33,738 bases of DNA from Rhizobium sp. Q54 (GTDB lineage Bacteria; Pseudomonadota; Alphaproteobacteria; ATCC43930; CGMCC-115725), in the NCBI GenBank assembly GCA_945861155.1, contig CAMATN010000046.1, positions 1-33,738 of the forward strand, written 5' to 3'. The notes under the pieces were generated by a model. The model worked only from the letters and a program-made list of their open reading frames with translations. It was not told the origin of the DNA and searched no databases. Shown in pieces: positions 22,280 through 33,738 of this stretch (positions are counted from its first letter, which is position 1; each line of letters begins with the position of its first letter). Both the position numbers and the translations under genes were made by a program.

Positions 22280-25200
22280 ATGCCGACGGATTACCGTCCG
22301 ACCGTTTTTCTTCCCAAGACCGATTTCCCGATGCGCGGCGGCCTGCCGGTGCTCGAACCGCAGCTCGTCGAGCGCTGGCGGGCGATGGGGCTTTACCAAA
22401 AGCTGCGCGAGGCCGCGCGCGGGCGCGAAAAATTCGTGCTGCATGACGGGCCGCCTTACGCCAACGGCGACCTTCATCTCGGGCACGCGCTGAACAAGAT
22501 CCTGAAGGACGTGATCAACCGCGCCCAGCAGATGAGCGGCAAGGACGCGCCCTACGTGCCGGGCTGGGACTGCCACGGGTTGCCGATCGAGTGGATCGTC
22601 GAGGAGAAGTACCGCGCCAAGAAGCAGTCGAAGGACAGCGTGCCGATTGCGCAATTCCGCCAGGAATGCCGCGACTTCGCCGCCCATTGGGTCGAGCAGC
22701 AGAAGGCGCAGTTCCAGCGCCTCGGCGTGATCGGCGACTGGGACAACCCCTATCTGACGATGAGCTTCGACGCCGAGGCGCAGATCGTGCGCGAGATCGG
22801 CAAGTTCCTGGTCAATGGCGGGCTCTACAAGGGCGCGAAGCCGGTGCTGTGGTCGGTCGTCGAGCAGACCGCGCTCGCCGAGGCCGAAGTCGAGTACCAC
22901 GACCACCGCTCGAACACGGTCTGGGTGCGCTTTCCGATCGTGACCCCGAGCCTGCCGGCGCTCGCCGGCGCTTCCGTGGTGATCTGGACGACGACGCCGT
23001 GGACCCTGCCCGGCAACCGCGCGATCGCCTACAGCGCCGATCTCGAATATGCCGTCCTGCGGGTCGAGCGCGCTGGCGAGAAGAGCCGGGCGCGGCCGGG
23101 CGAGCGGATCGTCGTCGCGGTGCCGCTGATCGAGGAAATCGCGGCGCGCGCCGGGATCGAGGCTCATACGGTCGAGGCGCGCTTTTCCGGCGCGGCGCTG
23201 GCCGGCACGCTCGCGCGCCACCCGCTGAGCGGCCAAGGCTATGATTTCGACGTGCCGCTCCTCGCCGCCGATTTCGTCGTCGCCGACACCGGCACCGGGC
23301 TCGTCCATATCGCGCCCGGCCACGGCGCCGACGACTGGGAACTCGGCCAGGCGAACGGGCTGCCGGTGCCGGACACGGTCGGACCGGACGGGGTCTACCT
23401 GCCGCAAGTGCCGCTGTTCGCCGGCCGCGCGGTCTATCGCCCCGATGGCAAGGCGGGCGATGCCGATGCGACGGTCATCGCGGCGATCGAGGCGGCGGGC
23501 GGGCTGTTGGCGCGCGGCACGCTGACCCATTCGTACCCGCATTCCTGGCGCTCGAAGGCGCCGCTGATTTTCCGCAACACGCCGCAATGGTTCATCAGCA
23601 TGGCGGCGAACGATCTGCGGCAGAAGGCGCTCGCCGCGATCGACGAGACCATTTGGATCCCGCCGCAGGGCAGGAACCGCATCCACGCAATGGTCGAGGG
23701 CCGGCCCGATTGGTGCGTGTCGCGCCAGCGCGCCTGGGGCGTGCCGATCCCGGTCTTCGTCAACCGCAAAACCGGCGAGCCGCTGCGCGATGGCGCGGTC
23801 GTCGAGCGGGTCGCCCAAGCGGTCGAGCGCGAGGGGGCGGACGCGTGGTATGCGACCGAGGCGTCGGTGTTCCTCGGCAATCAATACGACGCGGACGAGT
23901 GGGACAAGGTCACCGACATCATCGAGGTGTGGTTCGATTCGGGCTCGACCCATGCCTTCGTCCTCGAACAGCGGCCCGAATTGAAATGGCCGGCATCGCT
24001 CTATCTCGAAGGCTCCGACCAGCATCGCGGCTGGTTTCATTCCTCGCTGCTCGAATCCTGCGGCACGCGCGGTCGCGCGCCTTACGATGCGGTGCTGACG
24101 CACGGCTTCGTGCTCGACGAGGACGGGCGCAAGATGTCGAAATCATTGGGCAACGTCATCGCGCCGCAAGATGTGATGAAGCAAAGCGGCGCCGACATCC
24201 TGCGGCTCTGGGTCGTCGCCTCGGATTACGCCGAGGATCTGCGGATCGGACCCGAGATCCTGAAGCACATGGGCGACGCCTATCGCCGGCTGCGCAACAC
24301 GCTGCGCTACCTGCTCGGCGCGCTCGCCGTCTATTCCCCGGCCGAAGCCGTGCCGGCCGACGACATGCCCGAACTCGAACGCTGGGTGTTGCACCGCCTG
24401 TCCGAACTCGACCGGGTGGTGCGGCGCTCGATCGACGAATACGACTTCCATGCGTTGTTCACCGCGCTGCATAATTTCTGCGCGGTGGATTTGTCGGCGC
24501 TCTATTTCGACGTCCGCAAGGACCGGCTGTATTGCGACGGGGTCGACGATTTGAGGCGCCGCGGGACGCGCATGGTGATGGACCGAACCTTCGATTGCCT
24601 GGCGCGCTGGCTCGCGCCGGTGCTGTGCTTCACGGCCGAGGAAGCCTGGCTCGCCCGTCACGGCGATGCGCCCGGGCGCAGCATCCATCTCGAACTGTTT
24701 CCCGAGGTGCCGGGCGCCTGGCATGACCCGGCGCTCGGCGCGCGCTGGGCCGAGTTGCGCGAGTTGCGGCGGGTCGTCACCGGCGCGATCGAGGTCGAGC
24801 GCGCCGCCAAGCGCATCGGGTCGAGCCTGCAGGCCGCGGTCGAATTATACGTGCCGGGGCCGCTCATCGCCCTGTTGCGCGATGTCGATCTCGCCGAATT
24901 GTGCATCGTTTCAGCCGAGACGGTCGTGGCCGGGTCGCCCCCGGACGGCGCCTTCACCCTGCCCGATGTGCCCGGCATCGGGGTTGTCGTCGTGCCGGCG
25001 GCGGGGGCTCGGTGCGAGCGTTGCTGGCGGGTGTTGCCGGAAGTAGGCCACGTCCCGGGCCACGACGATCTCTGCGGTCGCTGCGGCGATGTTCTCGACC
25101 GCGGCGCCAGTGCGGCCCAAAGCCCTTCCGGCAGCCTGCCGGCCGCCACCCCCTCCCTCACCCTCCCCCGCAAGTGGGGGAGGGTGAGGGAGGGGGTAAT

Positions 25201-25702
25201 GCTTGGGCGCGGCCTCGCCGTGGCGGCGGTCGTCGCGCTGCTGGATCAGGCCAGCAAGGCGCTGGTGCTGGCCTTTTTCGGCGAGACCGGATGCGCCGCC
25301 CACCGCCTTGCGGTAAATTCGTTCCTCGATCTCGTGCTGACCTGCAACAGCGGCGTCAGCTTTGGCCTGTTTAGCCGGACCGGCATCAATTCGCTGATCT
25401 TCTCGCTCGCCGCCGCGGCGATCGTCGTCGTCTTGATCGTTTGGCTGAGCCGTGTCCGCACGAGCTTGCTGGCGGTAGCGCTCGGCCTGATCATCGGCGG
25501 CGCGATCGGCAATATCATCGACCGGCTGCGTTTTGACGCAGTGGTTGACTTCCTTTATTTTCACGCCGGGGCATGGTATTGGCCGGCGTTCAATCTTGCT
25601 GATAGCGCCATCTGCGTCGGGGTCGGGGTAATGTTGCTGGACAGCCTGCTGTCGCGGCGCGCGGCGCCGCAAGAAAACCGGGGAGAAGATGTTTCGCCAT
25701 GA
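22280..25702 (+). CDS. ileS-lspA: isoleucyl-tRNA synthetase fused in frame to lipoprotein signal peptidase (IleS-LspA)
   Basis: One uninterrupted frame of 1140 residues. The IleS part covers about 1-945: HIGH-type motif HLGH (66-69), the editing domain after about residue 200, KMSKS at 618-622, an anticodon-binding domain, and the C-terminal zinc pairs C912/C915 and C932/C935. This is normal class length for IleS. Instead of a stop, about 30 residues follow ([20 protein letters not shown] and on), largely encoded by a 50-nt palindrome. A full LspA then begins at M974 (ATG 25199). In most proteobacteria ileS and lspA are adjacent but separate, so this looks like a repeat insertion or stop loss joining them. 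The start is ATG 22280; the upstream TTG is unlikely. An assembly error could also produce this. Confidence 0.85.
25148..25197. repeat. 50-nt near-perfect palindrome at the ileS-lspA junction
   Basis: Two 24-nt arms (25148-25171 and 25174-25197) are complementary with a single mismatch that can pair as G-U in RNA. The core is CCCTCCCCCGC...GTGGGGGAGGG. In the ileS frame the left arm reads TPSLTLPR and the right arm WGRVREGV. The right arm ends 1 nt before the lspA ATG and contains GGGAGGGGG, a strong ribosome-binding site that the hairpin would hide. Confidence 0.95.
25199..25702 (+). CDS. lspA: lipoprotein signal peptidase (signal peptidase II), possible internal translation start within the fusion
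   Basis: From ATG 25199 the frame gives 167 residues, the normal length of LspA, the aspartic peptidase that removes signal peptides from diacylated prolipoproteins in the inner membrane. The four membrane spans and conserved blocks are present: [10 protein letters not shown] near the start, [21 protein letters not shown] and FNLADSAI. The catalytic aspartates are D108 and D135 (numbered from this start), 27 residues apart as in E. coli. The whole gene is the C-terminal part of the ileS frame. It may be made as a separate protein from this ATG, whose ribosome-binding site is supplied by the palindrome, or only as the fusion. Its stop overlaps the lipoprotein gene by 4 bp (ATGA). Confidence 0.85.
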
Positions 25703-29055: not shown

Positions 29056-31251
29056 ATGCGTAGCCTGTGGTCGGACTCCGATGCCGAGGCGACGGTCGCA
29101 CGCTATTATGGCGCGAGCATCGGCCGCGACCTGGCGCTGCGCGTCTACACCTCGCGCCTCCTCGGCGGCGATCCGCGCCTGGTGCTGCACGGCGGCGGCA
29201 ACGTGTCGGTCAAGACCGTGTTGCCGGACCTGATGGGCGACCCGGTCGAGGTGCTGTGCGTCAAGGGCAGCGGCTGGGACATGGGCGATATCGAGCCGGC
29301 CGGGCTGCCGGCGGTGCGCCTCGCGCCGCTGCGCCGGCTGCGCTGGCGCGACGCGCTGTCCGACGAGGACATGGTGCGCCTCCAGCGCGCCAACCTGATT
29401 GATCCGGGCGCGCCCACCCCATCGGTCGAGACGCTGCTGCACGCGTTTTTGCCGCACAAATTCGTCGATCATACCCATGCCACCGCGGTGTTGAGCCTCG
29501 CCGACCAGCCCGACGCGGCCGAGCGCGTCGCCGATCTCTACGGCAAGCGGGTCGGGATCGTGCCCTACATCATGCCGGGCTTCCTGCTCGCCAAGAAGGC
29601 GGCCGAAATCTACGAGGCCGATCCGGCGGTCGAAGGCCTCGTGCTGCTAAAGCACGGGGTTTTCAGCTTCGGCGACAGCGCGCGCGAGGCTTACGAACGG
29701 ATGATCGCGATCGTCTCGGCAGCGGAGGAGCGCCTGTCGCGCGGCCGCAGGCGCGTATTCGCCGCGGCAAAGCTGCCGGCTGAAGTGGCCGGCGCGGCCG
29801 AGGTCGCGCCTGTCTTGCGCGGCGTCAGCGCGCTCGCCGACCCGGCGGCGCCGGGTCTCTACAAGCGCTTCGTGCTCGATTTCCGCGGCGGGCCGGAGGT
29901 GCGCAATTTCGTCGACGGGGCCGATTTGCAGCGCTACGGGCTTGCCGGGGTCGCCACCCCCGACCACACGATCCGCACCAAGAATTTTCCGCTGATCGTG
30001 CCGGCGCCGGAACCCGGGCGGCTCGACGCGTTCGCCGCCACCGCGCGGGTGGCCGTCGAGCGCTTCATCGCCGAATACCACGCCTATTTCGCCCGCCATA
30101 ACGCAGGCTCGGCGGACCCCACACTTGCCTCTCCGGCAAACCCCCACCCCTTCCCTCCCCCGCTTGCGGGGGAGGGAGATCCCGGTGCTCGCCCGAACAA
30201 CCCTCCCCCGCAAGCGGGGGAGGGCAGGGTGGGGGTGGGCGCAGGAGGCGCGGGGCGAGGAAAACGCGAGCTCGATCCGGCGCCGCGGGTGATCCTGGTG
30301 CCGGGGCTCGGGCTGTTCGGGCTCGGGCGCAGCGCCAGGGACGCGGCGGTCGCGGCCGACCTCGCCGAAAGCTGGGTCGCGACGGTAACCGGCGCCGAGG
30401 CGATCGGCACGTTCGAGTCGCTGAGCCCGGCCGAGTTGTTCGAGATGGAATACTGGTCGCTCGAACAGGCCAAGCTCGGCAGTGCCGCCGAAAAACCGCT
30501 CGCCGGCCAGGTTGCGCTGATCACCGGCGGCGCCGGCACGATCGGCCTCGCCACCGCGCGCGCCTTGAAGAACGCCGGCGCCGAGATCGCACTGATCGAC
30601 CGCGACGGCGCCGGAGTGGAGGGCGCGGCAGCAAAATTGGGTGGGCTCGGCCTCGCCGCCGACGTGACCGACACGGCCGCCTTGCGCGCCGCGTTCGACC
30701 GGGTCGCGGTGCGCTTCGGCGGGCTCGACATCGTCGTGTCGAACGCCGGCGCCGCCTGGCAGGGCCGCATCGGCGAGATCGACGACAAGACCCTGCGCGA
30801 CAGCTTCGAATTGAACTTCTTCGCCCATCAATCGGTCGCGCGGAACGCGGTGCGGATCATGTTGGCGCAGGGCACCGGCGGGTGCCTGTTGTTCAACGTG
30901 TCGAAGCAGGCGCTCAACCCCGGCGTCGATTTTGGCCCCTACGGCGTGCCGAAGGCCGCCACCTTGGCGCTGATGCGGCAATACGCGCTCGATTACGGCG
31001 CTATCGGCATCCGCGCCAACGCGGTCAATGCCGACCGCATCCGCGGCGGCCTGCTGACCCCCGAGATGATCGCGGCGCGCGCCCGGGCGCGCGGGGTCGG
31101 CGAGACCGAGTACATGGGCGGCAATCTGCTGCGCCGCGAGGTCACCGCCGGGGATGTCGCGCAGGCCTTTGTCGAGCTGGCGCTGGCCCGCACCACGACC
31201 GGGGGAATCGCCACCGTCGATGGCGGCAACATCGCCGCCGCGCCGCGCTGA
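29056..31251 (+). CDS. bifunctional class II aldolase / short-chain dehydrogenase (RhaD-like fusion)
   Basis: A 731-residue cytosolic two-domain protein. The class II aldolase/adducin domain (about 10-350) has HGGGNVSVK and KGSGWDMG near the phosphate/substrate site, and zinc-binding histidines at H139, H141 (FVDHTHATA) and H200 (LLKHGVFSFG). The NAD-binding SDR domain (about 480-731) has TGGAGTIG at 490-497, the NAG motif, and Y629/K633 in YGVPK. The family splits sugar 1-phosphates such as rhamnulose-1-phosphate and oxidises the aldehyde made. Between the domains about 50 residues (351-402) are extra and encoded by a palindromic repeat; they separate YFARHNA from KRELDPAPRVILVPGLGLFGLG, which I would expect to be nearly contiguous. 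A G-rich ribosome-binding site precedes the ATG. Confidence 0.9.
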   Translation: MRSLWSDSDAEATVARYYGASIGRDLALRVYTSRLLGGDPRLVLHGGGNVSVKTVLPDLMGDPVEVLCVKGSGWDMGDIEPAGLPAVRLAPLRRLRWRDALSDEDMVRLQRANLIDPGAPTPSVETLLHAFLPHKFVDHTHATAVLSLADQPDAAERVADLYGKRVGIVPYIMPGFLLAKKAAEIYEADPAVEGLVLLKHGVFSFGDSAREAYERMIAIVSAAEERLSRGRRRVFAAAKLPAEVAGAAEVAPVLRGVSALADPAAPGLYKRFVLDFRGGPEVRNFVDGADLQRYGLAGVATPDHTIRTKNFPLIVPAPEPGRLDAFAATARVAVERFIAEYHAYFARHNAGSADPTLASPANPHPFPPPLAGEGDPGARPNNPPPQAGEGRVGVGAGGAGRGKRELDPAPRVILVPGLGLFGLGRSARDAAVAADLAESWVATVTGAEAIGTFESLSPAELFEMEYWSLEQAKLGSAAEKPLAGQVALITGGAGTIGLATARALKNAGAEIALIDRDGAGVEGAAAKLGGLGLAADVTDTAALRAAFDRVAVRFGGLDIVVSNAGAAWQGRIGEIDDKTLRDSFELNFFAHQSVARNAVRIMLAQGTGGCLLFNVSKQALNPGVDFGPYGVPKAATLALMRQYALDYGAIGIRANAVNADRIRGGLLTPEMIAARARARGVGETEYMGGNLLRREVTAGDVAQAFVELALARTTTGGIATVDGGNIAAAPR
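30139..30240. repeat. 102-bp double palindrome inserted in the aldolase/SDR coding sequence
   Basis: Two perfect 24-nt palindromes (30153-30176 and 30201-30224), each with arms CCCTCCCCCGC and GCGGGGGAGGG, face each other across 24 nt. Outside them, CCCCCACCC on the left and GGGTGGGGG on the right extend the symmetry, so the whole unit is a large inverted repeat of about 38-bp arms with a one-base length difference. The frame is kept: the left half reads [13 protein letters not shown] and the right half [13 protein letters not shown]. Confidence 0.93.
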
Positions 31252-33512: not shown

Positions 33513-33738
33513 TTGACACGCTGACGCTGCGCCGGCCTGACGACTGGCATGTGCATTTCCGCGACGGCGCAATGCTGCGGAGTGTGCTGCCGTGGACCGC
33601 GCGGCAGTTCGCTCGCGCGGTCGTGATGCCGAATCTGGCGCCGCCGGTCGGCGATGTCGCGGCGGCGCGCGCCTATCGCGAGCGCATCGTCGCGGCGTTG
33701 CCGCCCCCACCCTTCCCTCCCCCGCTTGCGGGGGAGGG
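33509..33738 (+). CDS. pyrC: dihydroorotase, 5' part, interrupted by a palindromic repeat (partial at window edge)
   Basis: The first 76 codons of an E. coli-type dihydroorotase, which closes carbamoyl-aspartate to dihydroorotate in pyrimidine synthesis. [16 protein letters not shown] gives the zinc ligands H14 and H16 and substrate arginine R18; [14 protein letters not shown] is the next conserved block. Around residue 65 the family sequence (usually ...YR.RI..A.P, then a stretch leading to a conserved TCYLTD) gives way to [13 protein letters not shown], encoded by the same palindrome found in the aldolase/SDR gene and in the same reading frame. Whether the frame recovers beyond the window is unknown, so the gene may carry an in-frame insert or be broken. 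The start overlaps the lactonase stop as ATGA. Confidence 0.88.
33704..33738. repeat. palindromic repeat inside pyrC, cut by window edge
   Basis: CCCCCACCC followed by a perfect 24-nt palindrome (33715-33738) with arms CCCTCCCCCGC/GCGGGGGAGGG. It is nearly identical to the left half of the element at 30139-30176. A matching right half would be expected beyond the window if it is a full unit. Confidence 0.9.

Follow-up and report, generated by a model that had tools for sequence, protein, structure and literature searches.

Palindromic repeats lying in frame within open reading frames that likely encode functional proteins are described from Rickettsia, where they are termed RPE (PMC3733652). 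The same source describes REP and REPIN sequences as short, high-copy palindromes with GTAG or CGTC tags that occur singly or as doublets near gene 3' ends and sometimes, in several genera, within genes, including tRNA synthetase genes; its section 15 mentions no fusion of neighbouring genes. Membrane-associated aminoacyl-tRNA synthetases are described from cyanobacteria, in which class I enzymes acquire transmembrane helices through the CAAD domain, a CURT1 homologue of two helices that is inserted in the enzyme; for ValRS the anchoring is well demonstrated, and CAAD is listed in the IleRS of 11 species (PMC4893482).

The window analysed here, a 33,738-nucleotide stretch that constitutes contig C46 of the Rhizobium sp. 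Q54 assembly, carries ileS and lspA in one open reading frame joined by a palindromic repeat. The likeness to the Rickettsia elements, sequence relation left aside, is that palindromic repeats sit in frame within genes in both systems; whereas an RPE lengthens one protein, the ileS-lspA copy unites two neighbouring genes. As with REPs, the repeat is a short, dispersed, high-copy palindrome found both singly and as doublets, and its 24-nt core CCCTCCCCCGCNNGCGGGGGAGGG has 146 exact occurrences in the genome against none for a reversed-pattern control. Unlike REPs, the family shows no conserved GTAG or CGTC terminal tag when 65 copies are aligned to a consensus, and a PF01797 search found no Y1 transposase in the genome. 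The present case works like an RPE insertion; judged by the two features tested, it does not belong to the tagged REPs. With the CAAD enzymes IleS-LspA shares the pairing of a class I synthetase, IleRS included, with membrane helices; those enzymes bear an inserted two-helix domain, whereas here a whole membrane protease is added at the C terminus. Palindromes in frame inside genes are thus known, and the new element, within the literature searched, is the joining of two neighbouring genes. Our searches of the literature found no report of an IleS-LspA fusion and no repeat that joins neighbouring unrelated genes by shifting an overlapping stop.

A single open frame is confirmed to encode a complete IleRS plus a complete LspA. 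The frame is open from TTG 22253 or ATG 22280 through the stop ending at 25702 (Table 1). HLGH starts at residue 66 (22475), KMSKS at residue 618 (24131), and the two cysteine pairs CERC and CGRC at residues 912 and 932 of the fused frame, while residues 4-939 align with the solved IleRS chains 8c9e and 1ffy. The features that define an IleRS, namely HIGH-like and KMSKS motifs, an anticodon domain and a zinc finger, were all found (PF00133, PF08264, PF06827), and TIGR00392 scores 846.8 bits on the IleS part against a cut-off of 621.4. The top-scoring model, NF040702 (IleRS with GNAT domain), reaches 918.5 but lies far under its cut-off of 1999, and we do not claim that identity. From Met974 onward the fused frame aligns with the LspA structures 9emz and 5dir; PF01252 (Peptidase_A8) scores 115.5 bits and TIGR00077 113.7 against a cut-off of 73.95, and the structural model contains four long helices. 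Asp1090 and Asp1108, which we take to be the two catalytic aspartates of LspA, occupy invariant columns in an alignment of 33 sequences. Pfam domains at E up to 0.001 comprise the synthetase domains, the zinc finger and Peptidase_A8 only; the CAAD/CURT1-type two-helix domain is absent. These results bear out the preliminary description, which had read from the DNA a complete IleS with HLGH, KMSKS and both zinc pairs, a complete LspA with both aspartates, and a stop-free frame that a palindrome joins and within which LspA has its own start.

Table 1. Positions in the window of the fused gene, its junction and other copies of the repeat.
Feature	Position	Strand	Description
Fused ORF, IleS + linker + LspA	22280..25702	+	1140 aa, ~125 kDa
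ileS part up to insertion point	22280..25150	+	957 residues; PDB alignment; break after ...GCCACC in congener alignment
C-terminal zinc-finger Cys pairs, CERC + CGRC	25013..25084	+	zf-FPG_IleRS, 22.1 bits vs 21.3
Perfect inverted repeat	25148..25197	+	22-bp arms, 6-nt loop; -55.2 kcal/mol
Inserted DNA, 43 nt	25151..25193	+	alignment to congeners G005 and G006
GGAGG, Shine-Dalgarno-like	25189..25193	+	5 nt before lspA ATG, within hairpin 3' arm
Relic ileS stop TAA	25197..25199	+	out of ileS frame; overlaps lspA ATG as TAATG
lspA (signal peptidase II)	25199..25702	+	ATG within fused frame; PF01252, PDB 9emz/5dir, alignment, AlphaFold2 model
Asp1090 codon, in VVDF	25547..25549	+	invariant
Asp1108 codon, in NLAD	25601..25603	+	invariant
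Aldolase/short-chain dehydrogenase gene	29056..31251	+	interrupted in frame by two repeat copies
Doublet first half, in aldolase-dehydrogenase gene	30140..30179	-	repeat copy of inverted doublet
Doublet second half, in aldolase-dehydrogenase gene	30200..30236	+	repeat copy
Partial repeat copy	33704..33738	-	end of contig C46

The palindrome at the junction has arms of 22 nt each (25148-25169 and 25176-25197) that are 100% complementary, so that the 50-nt structure earlier called near-perfect is in fact perfect. The further statement that it makes up almost the entire joining segment was too strong, since 38 residues separate the last zinc-finger cysteine (935) from the LspA methionine (974) and the palindrome reaches into 17 of them. 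As RNA the palindrome folds at -55.2 kcal/mol, compared with a mean of -27.4 for shuffled sequences; a chance palindrome is ruled out by this fold energy and by the copy number of the family. The loop of the junction copy is GCAAGT, the commoner loop of the family being GCAAGC. Among known RNA families, only two tRNAs in the window reach the Rfam threshold.

Alignment of the window to congeners G005 and G006 reveals one clean 43-nt insertion around the junction, between ...GCCACC and GGGTAATG (ACC|GGGT), and a separate 15-nt length difference upstream, within the end of ileS. All seven congeners lack the palindrome at the junction, and in each an in-frame ileS stop touches, overlaps or closely precedes the lspA start; relatives that have the same palindrome together with a separate ileS stop, the observation named beforehand as fatal to the fusion, were thus not encountered among them. 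The relatives share with the fused locus the order of ileS and lspA and a stop and start that touch or overlap, and TAATG is retained in the fused frame; in the relatives read, ileS stops before or at the lspA start, whereas in the fused frame that stop is out of frame. Because 43 = 14 x 3 + 1, the old TAA has left the ileS frame and the lspA ATG (25199-25201) has entered it, the ileS frame reading GTA ATG at this point. Of the three downstream phases, the first stops immediately at the TAA, the second reaches a stop after 59 codons and the third is lspA. One insertion of length 1 mod 3 therefore both hides the ileS stop and merges the two frames. The dispersed repeat family, the insertion absent from seven congeners and the out-of-frame TAATG relic are all features that the preliminary description missed.

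We consider it likely, from the insertion relative to congeners and the frame arithmetic, that insertion of a REP/RPE-like repeat made a real fused gene. A 43-nt copy of the dispersed palindromic repeat would have inserted between ileS and lspA, three bases before TAATG; with the repeat open in the frame entered by ileS, ribosomes would bypass the TAA and continue into lspA. The insertion is probably recent. The fusion would then represent the gene-joining outcome of a genome-wide multiplication of the repeat, in which copies inside genes keep the frame. It is known from one draft assembly (4.88 Mb, 226 contigs, 96.9% complete, 2.3% contamination), and the best named DNA match of the window is an alphaproteobacterial metagenome genome with 70% identity in the best segment.

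The same fusion, whose search in related genomes had been proposed at the outset, was absent from every set examined. None of 61 loci with both genes contains it; these were drawn from 80 loci, the other 19 having either no LspA match in the stretch or an incomplete ileS. Nor is it present in any of 25 relatives read at the junction, seven congeners included, all of which have an in-frame ileS stop. Two of the 25 (G008 and G018; L110, L112) do not have lspA beside ileS, their LspA match lying more than 100 kb away on the same contig. Among 141 other members of the class, drawn evenly from a larger group, 133 have an LspA match (E <= 1e-15), none of them in an open frame above 740 aa. The genome sets behind these counts overlap. 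Of the long open frames flagged among these genomes, six were inspected (G017, G020, G026, G039, G040, G167), and each of them has an ileS stop of its own. For the 61 loci, 25 relatives and 133 class members, a conserved fusion is accordingly rejected, and the earlier remark that no described IleS-LspA fusion was known holds for the relatives examined and the literature searched.

In G020 (L184, contig C279), a genome of the same taxonomic family, another kind of palindromic repeat separates the ileS TGA from lspA, and lspA lies in the ileS frame. This palindrome of its own at the junction indicates that the spot has been hit more than once, the stop having survived in G020.

The repeat is expanded in this species, without a recognised transposase. 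Exact cores number at most 13 in the congeners (1-13 in each of seven genomes that are 74-99% complete, the congener with 13 being 74% complete), against the 146 in the source genome, and the ileS-lspA copy falls outside the 146 because one base differs from the core. A DNA query with the whole repeat (E <= 1e-9) matches three of eight genomes of the genus, with 24 matches in the source genome and two each in G001 and G006. Some copies stand alone, measuring about 47-50 nt with a tail on either side, and others form inverted doublets; their length varies. A PF01797 search for a Y1 (RAYT-type) transposase returned none in the source genome and was positive in five of 14 control genomes; with the genome about 97% complete, this absence is not absolute. 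Five plasmid records, four from Azospirillum and one from Deinococcus, contain DNA that matches part of the repeat at 80-90% identity. Two contigs terminate within repeat copies, C46 (33704-33738) and C8 (L176 2218-2264), which indicates that the assembler broke at some copies.

Other copies of the repeat were examined in 54 stretches besides the window, a selection by similarity or list order that is neither random nor complete: 39 were chosen as best matches to the window copy, with similarity scored for 40 of 141 first-look candidates, and 15 were the first listed matches to the core. Merging yielded 60 sites, of which 58 were classifiable. At 13 of the 58 the repeat lies in frame with coding sequence on both sides, that is, as an RPE-like in-frame insertion into ordinary protein genes, coding being judged by a codon score trained on long frames of the same loci and not by a gene finder. 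The other surveyed sites comprise 28 with coding on one side, 15 with neither side coding, two between opposite strands and two at contig ends. None of the 58 has same-strand coding on both sides in different frames or with an intervening stop; frame-breaking insertions may be present among the 43 sites where at most one side is coding.

By a whole-open-frame criterion, 13 ORFs besides IleS-LspA carry the repeat, 11 of which are among the 13 sites of the stricter test. The remaining in-frame ORFs, L116 and L138, fall below the stricter test, as does the ileS-lspA site itself, whose left flank did not score as coding; L114 and L145 passed it and are not among the identified genes. The repeat-carrying ORFs match acyl-CoA ligase, BoxC, a YdiJ-like oxidase, ETF-ubiquinone oxidoreductase, a molybdopterin hydroxylase, an amidase, an alpha/beta hydrolase, CobN, LigD, CobW, CtaA, Mfd and an aldolase-dehydrogenase; the last two names are presumptive assignments that we base on domain make-up. 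In 12 of the 13 the family match spans the repeat or flanks it on both sides (weakly upstream in L121); in L126, the amidase, it lies upstream of the repeat only. IleS-LspA is the only surveyed case in which the repeat unites two genes.

Relatives were compared for two of the 13 repeat-carrying ORFs. The insert in the aldolase-dehydrogenase gene is missing in all six aligned congeners, the seventh, G007, giving no match. The Mfd insert is missing in four of six congeners. At the same linker the insert of G003 is longer and that of G007 short; G006 gave no match. Inserts of differing sequence and length thus occupy the Mfd linker in the source genome, G003 and G007 (L151, L162, L166). This pattern suggests that the Mfd linker may be a tolerant or favoured insertion site.

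Against the insertion reading itself count the Mfd insert, which as the second case set beside relatives proved not to be confined to the species, and the search of the genome for a Y1 (RAYT-type) transposase, which found none. Against it also stands the view that the fused frame is a sequencing or assembly error, the palindrome truly being one base shorter or two bases longer, such that IleS would gain a short repeat-encoded tail and stop at the relic TAA, with lspA starting at the overlapping ATG as in the relatives. We judge this improbable though worth weighing: the assembly is a draft in which a palindrome misread by 1 or 2 bases would leave no fused frame, the hairpin is strong, with stretches of five C and of five G, contigs C46 and C8 break off within other copies, TAATG is intact, and other copies of the family vary in length, so that length alone provides no check on the junction copy. 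The arms, however, are perfectly complementary over 22 nt, a perfection that a one-sided indel would have to create, and in the same assembly the frame is kept at every one of the 13 sites that have coding on both sides of one strand, a sign that indels are not frequent at hairpins of this kind. A misjoin is unlikely, since the junction copy has its own loop sequence as well as the expected gene neighbours.

Somewhat more plausible than a base error, yet still rather doubtful, is that the DNA is as read but the cell makes mainly separate enzymes, with internal initiation at ATG 25199 giving LspA, and with free IleRS coming from linker proteolysis, from stalling at the hairpin or from slippage on GGGGG (25192-25196). 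The GGAGG 5 nt ahead of this ATG, the kept TAATG and a linker with no predicted secondary structure before residue 965 are consistent with such an outcome, and a +1 slip on the G-run would, by sequence, read the TAA next. Conversely, a 22-bp stem hides the Shine-Dalgarno-like site, ribosomes elongating along the ileS frame encounter no stop, and no relative read shares the site of the putative slippage signal. By far the least probable account is a selected fusion, in which tethering IleRS to the inner membrane, or producing it in a fixed 1:1 ratio with LspA, would benefit the cell. Both halves are intact, and membrane-anchored aminoacyl-tRNA synthetases exist, as in the CAAD-bearing ValRS and the IleRS of 11 cyanobacterial species (PMC4893482); set against this, the fusion is absent from the relatives examined, was created by a repeat also present in unrelated proteins, and retains a perfect palindrome at its junction with no sign of refinement. 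The fusion is most simply explained as a by-product of the repeat, and a selected membrane-tethering role is less likely given that the repeat also sits in frame in unrelated genes.

If the repeat insertion did produce a fused gene, a 125-kDa protein is the simplest expectation, since ribosomes that enter at ileS find no stop until lspA ends. This main product would place IleRS in the cytosol and LspA in the inner membrane, connected by a basic linker. The N terminus of LspA normally lies inside, and the arrangement is therefore topologically possible. An AlphaFold2 model of the last 209 residues, computed with LspA relatives, keeps the four-helix LspA fold with a mean pLDDT of 84.8 (50-73 over the first 40 residues and about 70 or lower over the linker, a part that has no alignment behind it). 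In this model the repeat-encoded KWGRVREG continues into helix 1 and is preceded by no secondary structure. Some free LspA may in addition start at ATG 25199 behind the new GGAGG; the GGAGG would favour free LspA, but the stem would bury it unless passing ribosomes open the stem.

The source genome gave one match to a query of the IleS C terminus plus LspA and one to an LspA query, and no spare copy was therefore seen. We suggest, tentatively and at somewhat less than even confidence, that the sole IleRS found in this genome is a membrane-tethered IleRS-LspA, the one-step product of a mobile palindrome beside a stop/start overlap. More generally, such repeats could be a gene-fusion device: at an overlap of the TAATG type, one in three insertion phases would join the genes, as long as the repeat has no stop in the frame that enters it. 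The locus offers a concrete path by which operon neighbours can become one fused protein, and the fusion would show whether confinement to the inner membrane is tolerated by a central synthetase. The genome also lends itself well to the question of where in proteins a repeat-encoded insert of about 16 residues or more can be accommodated.
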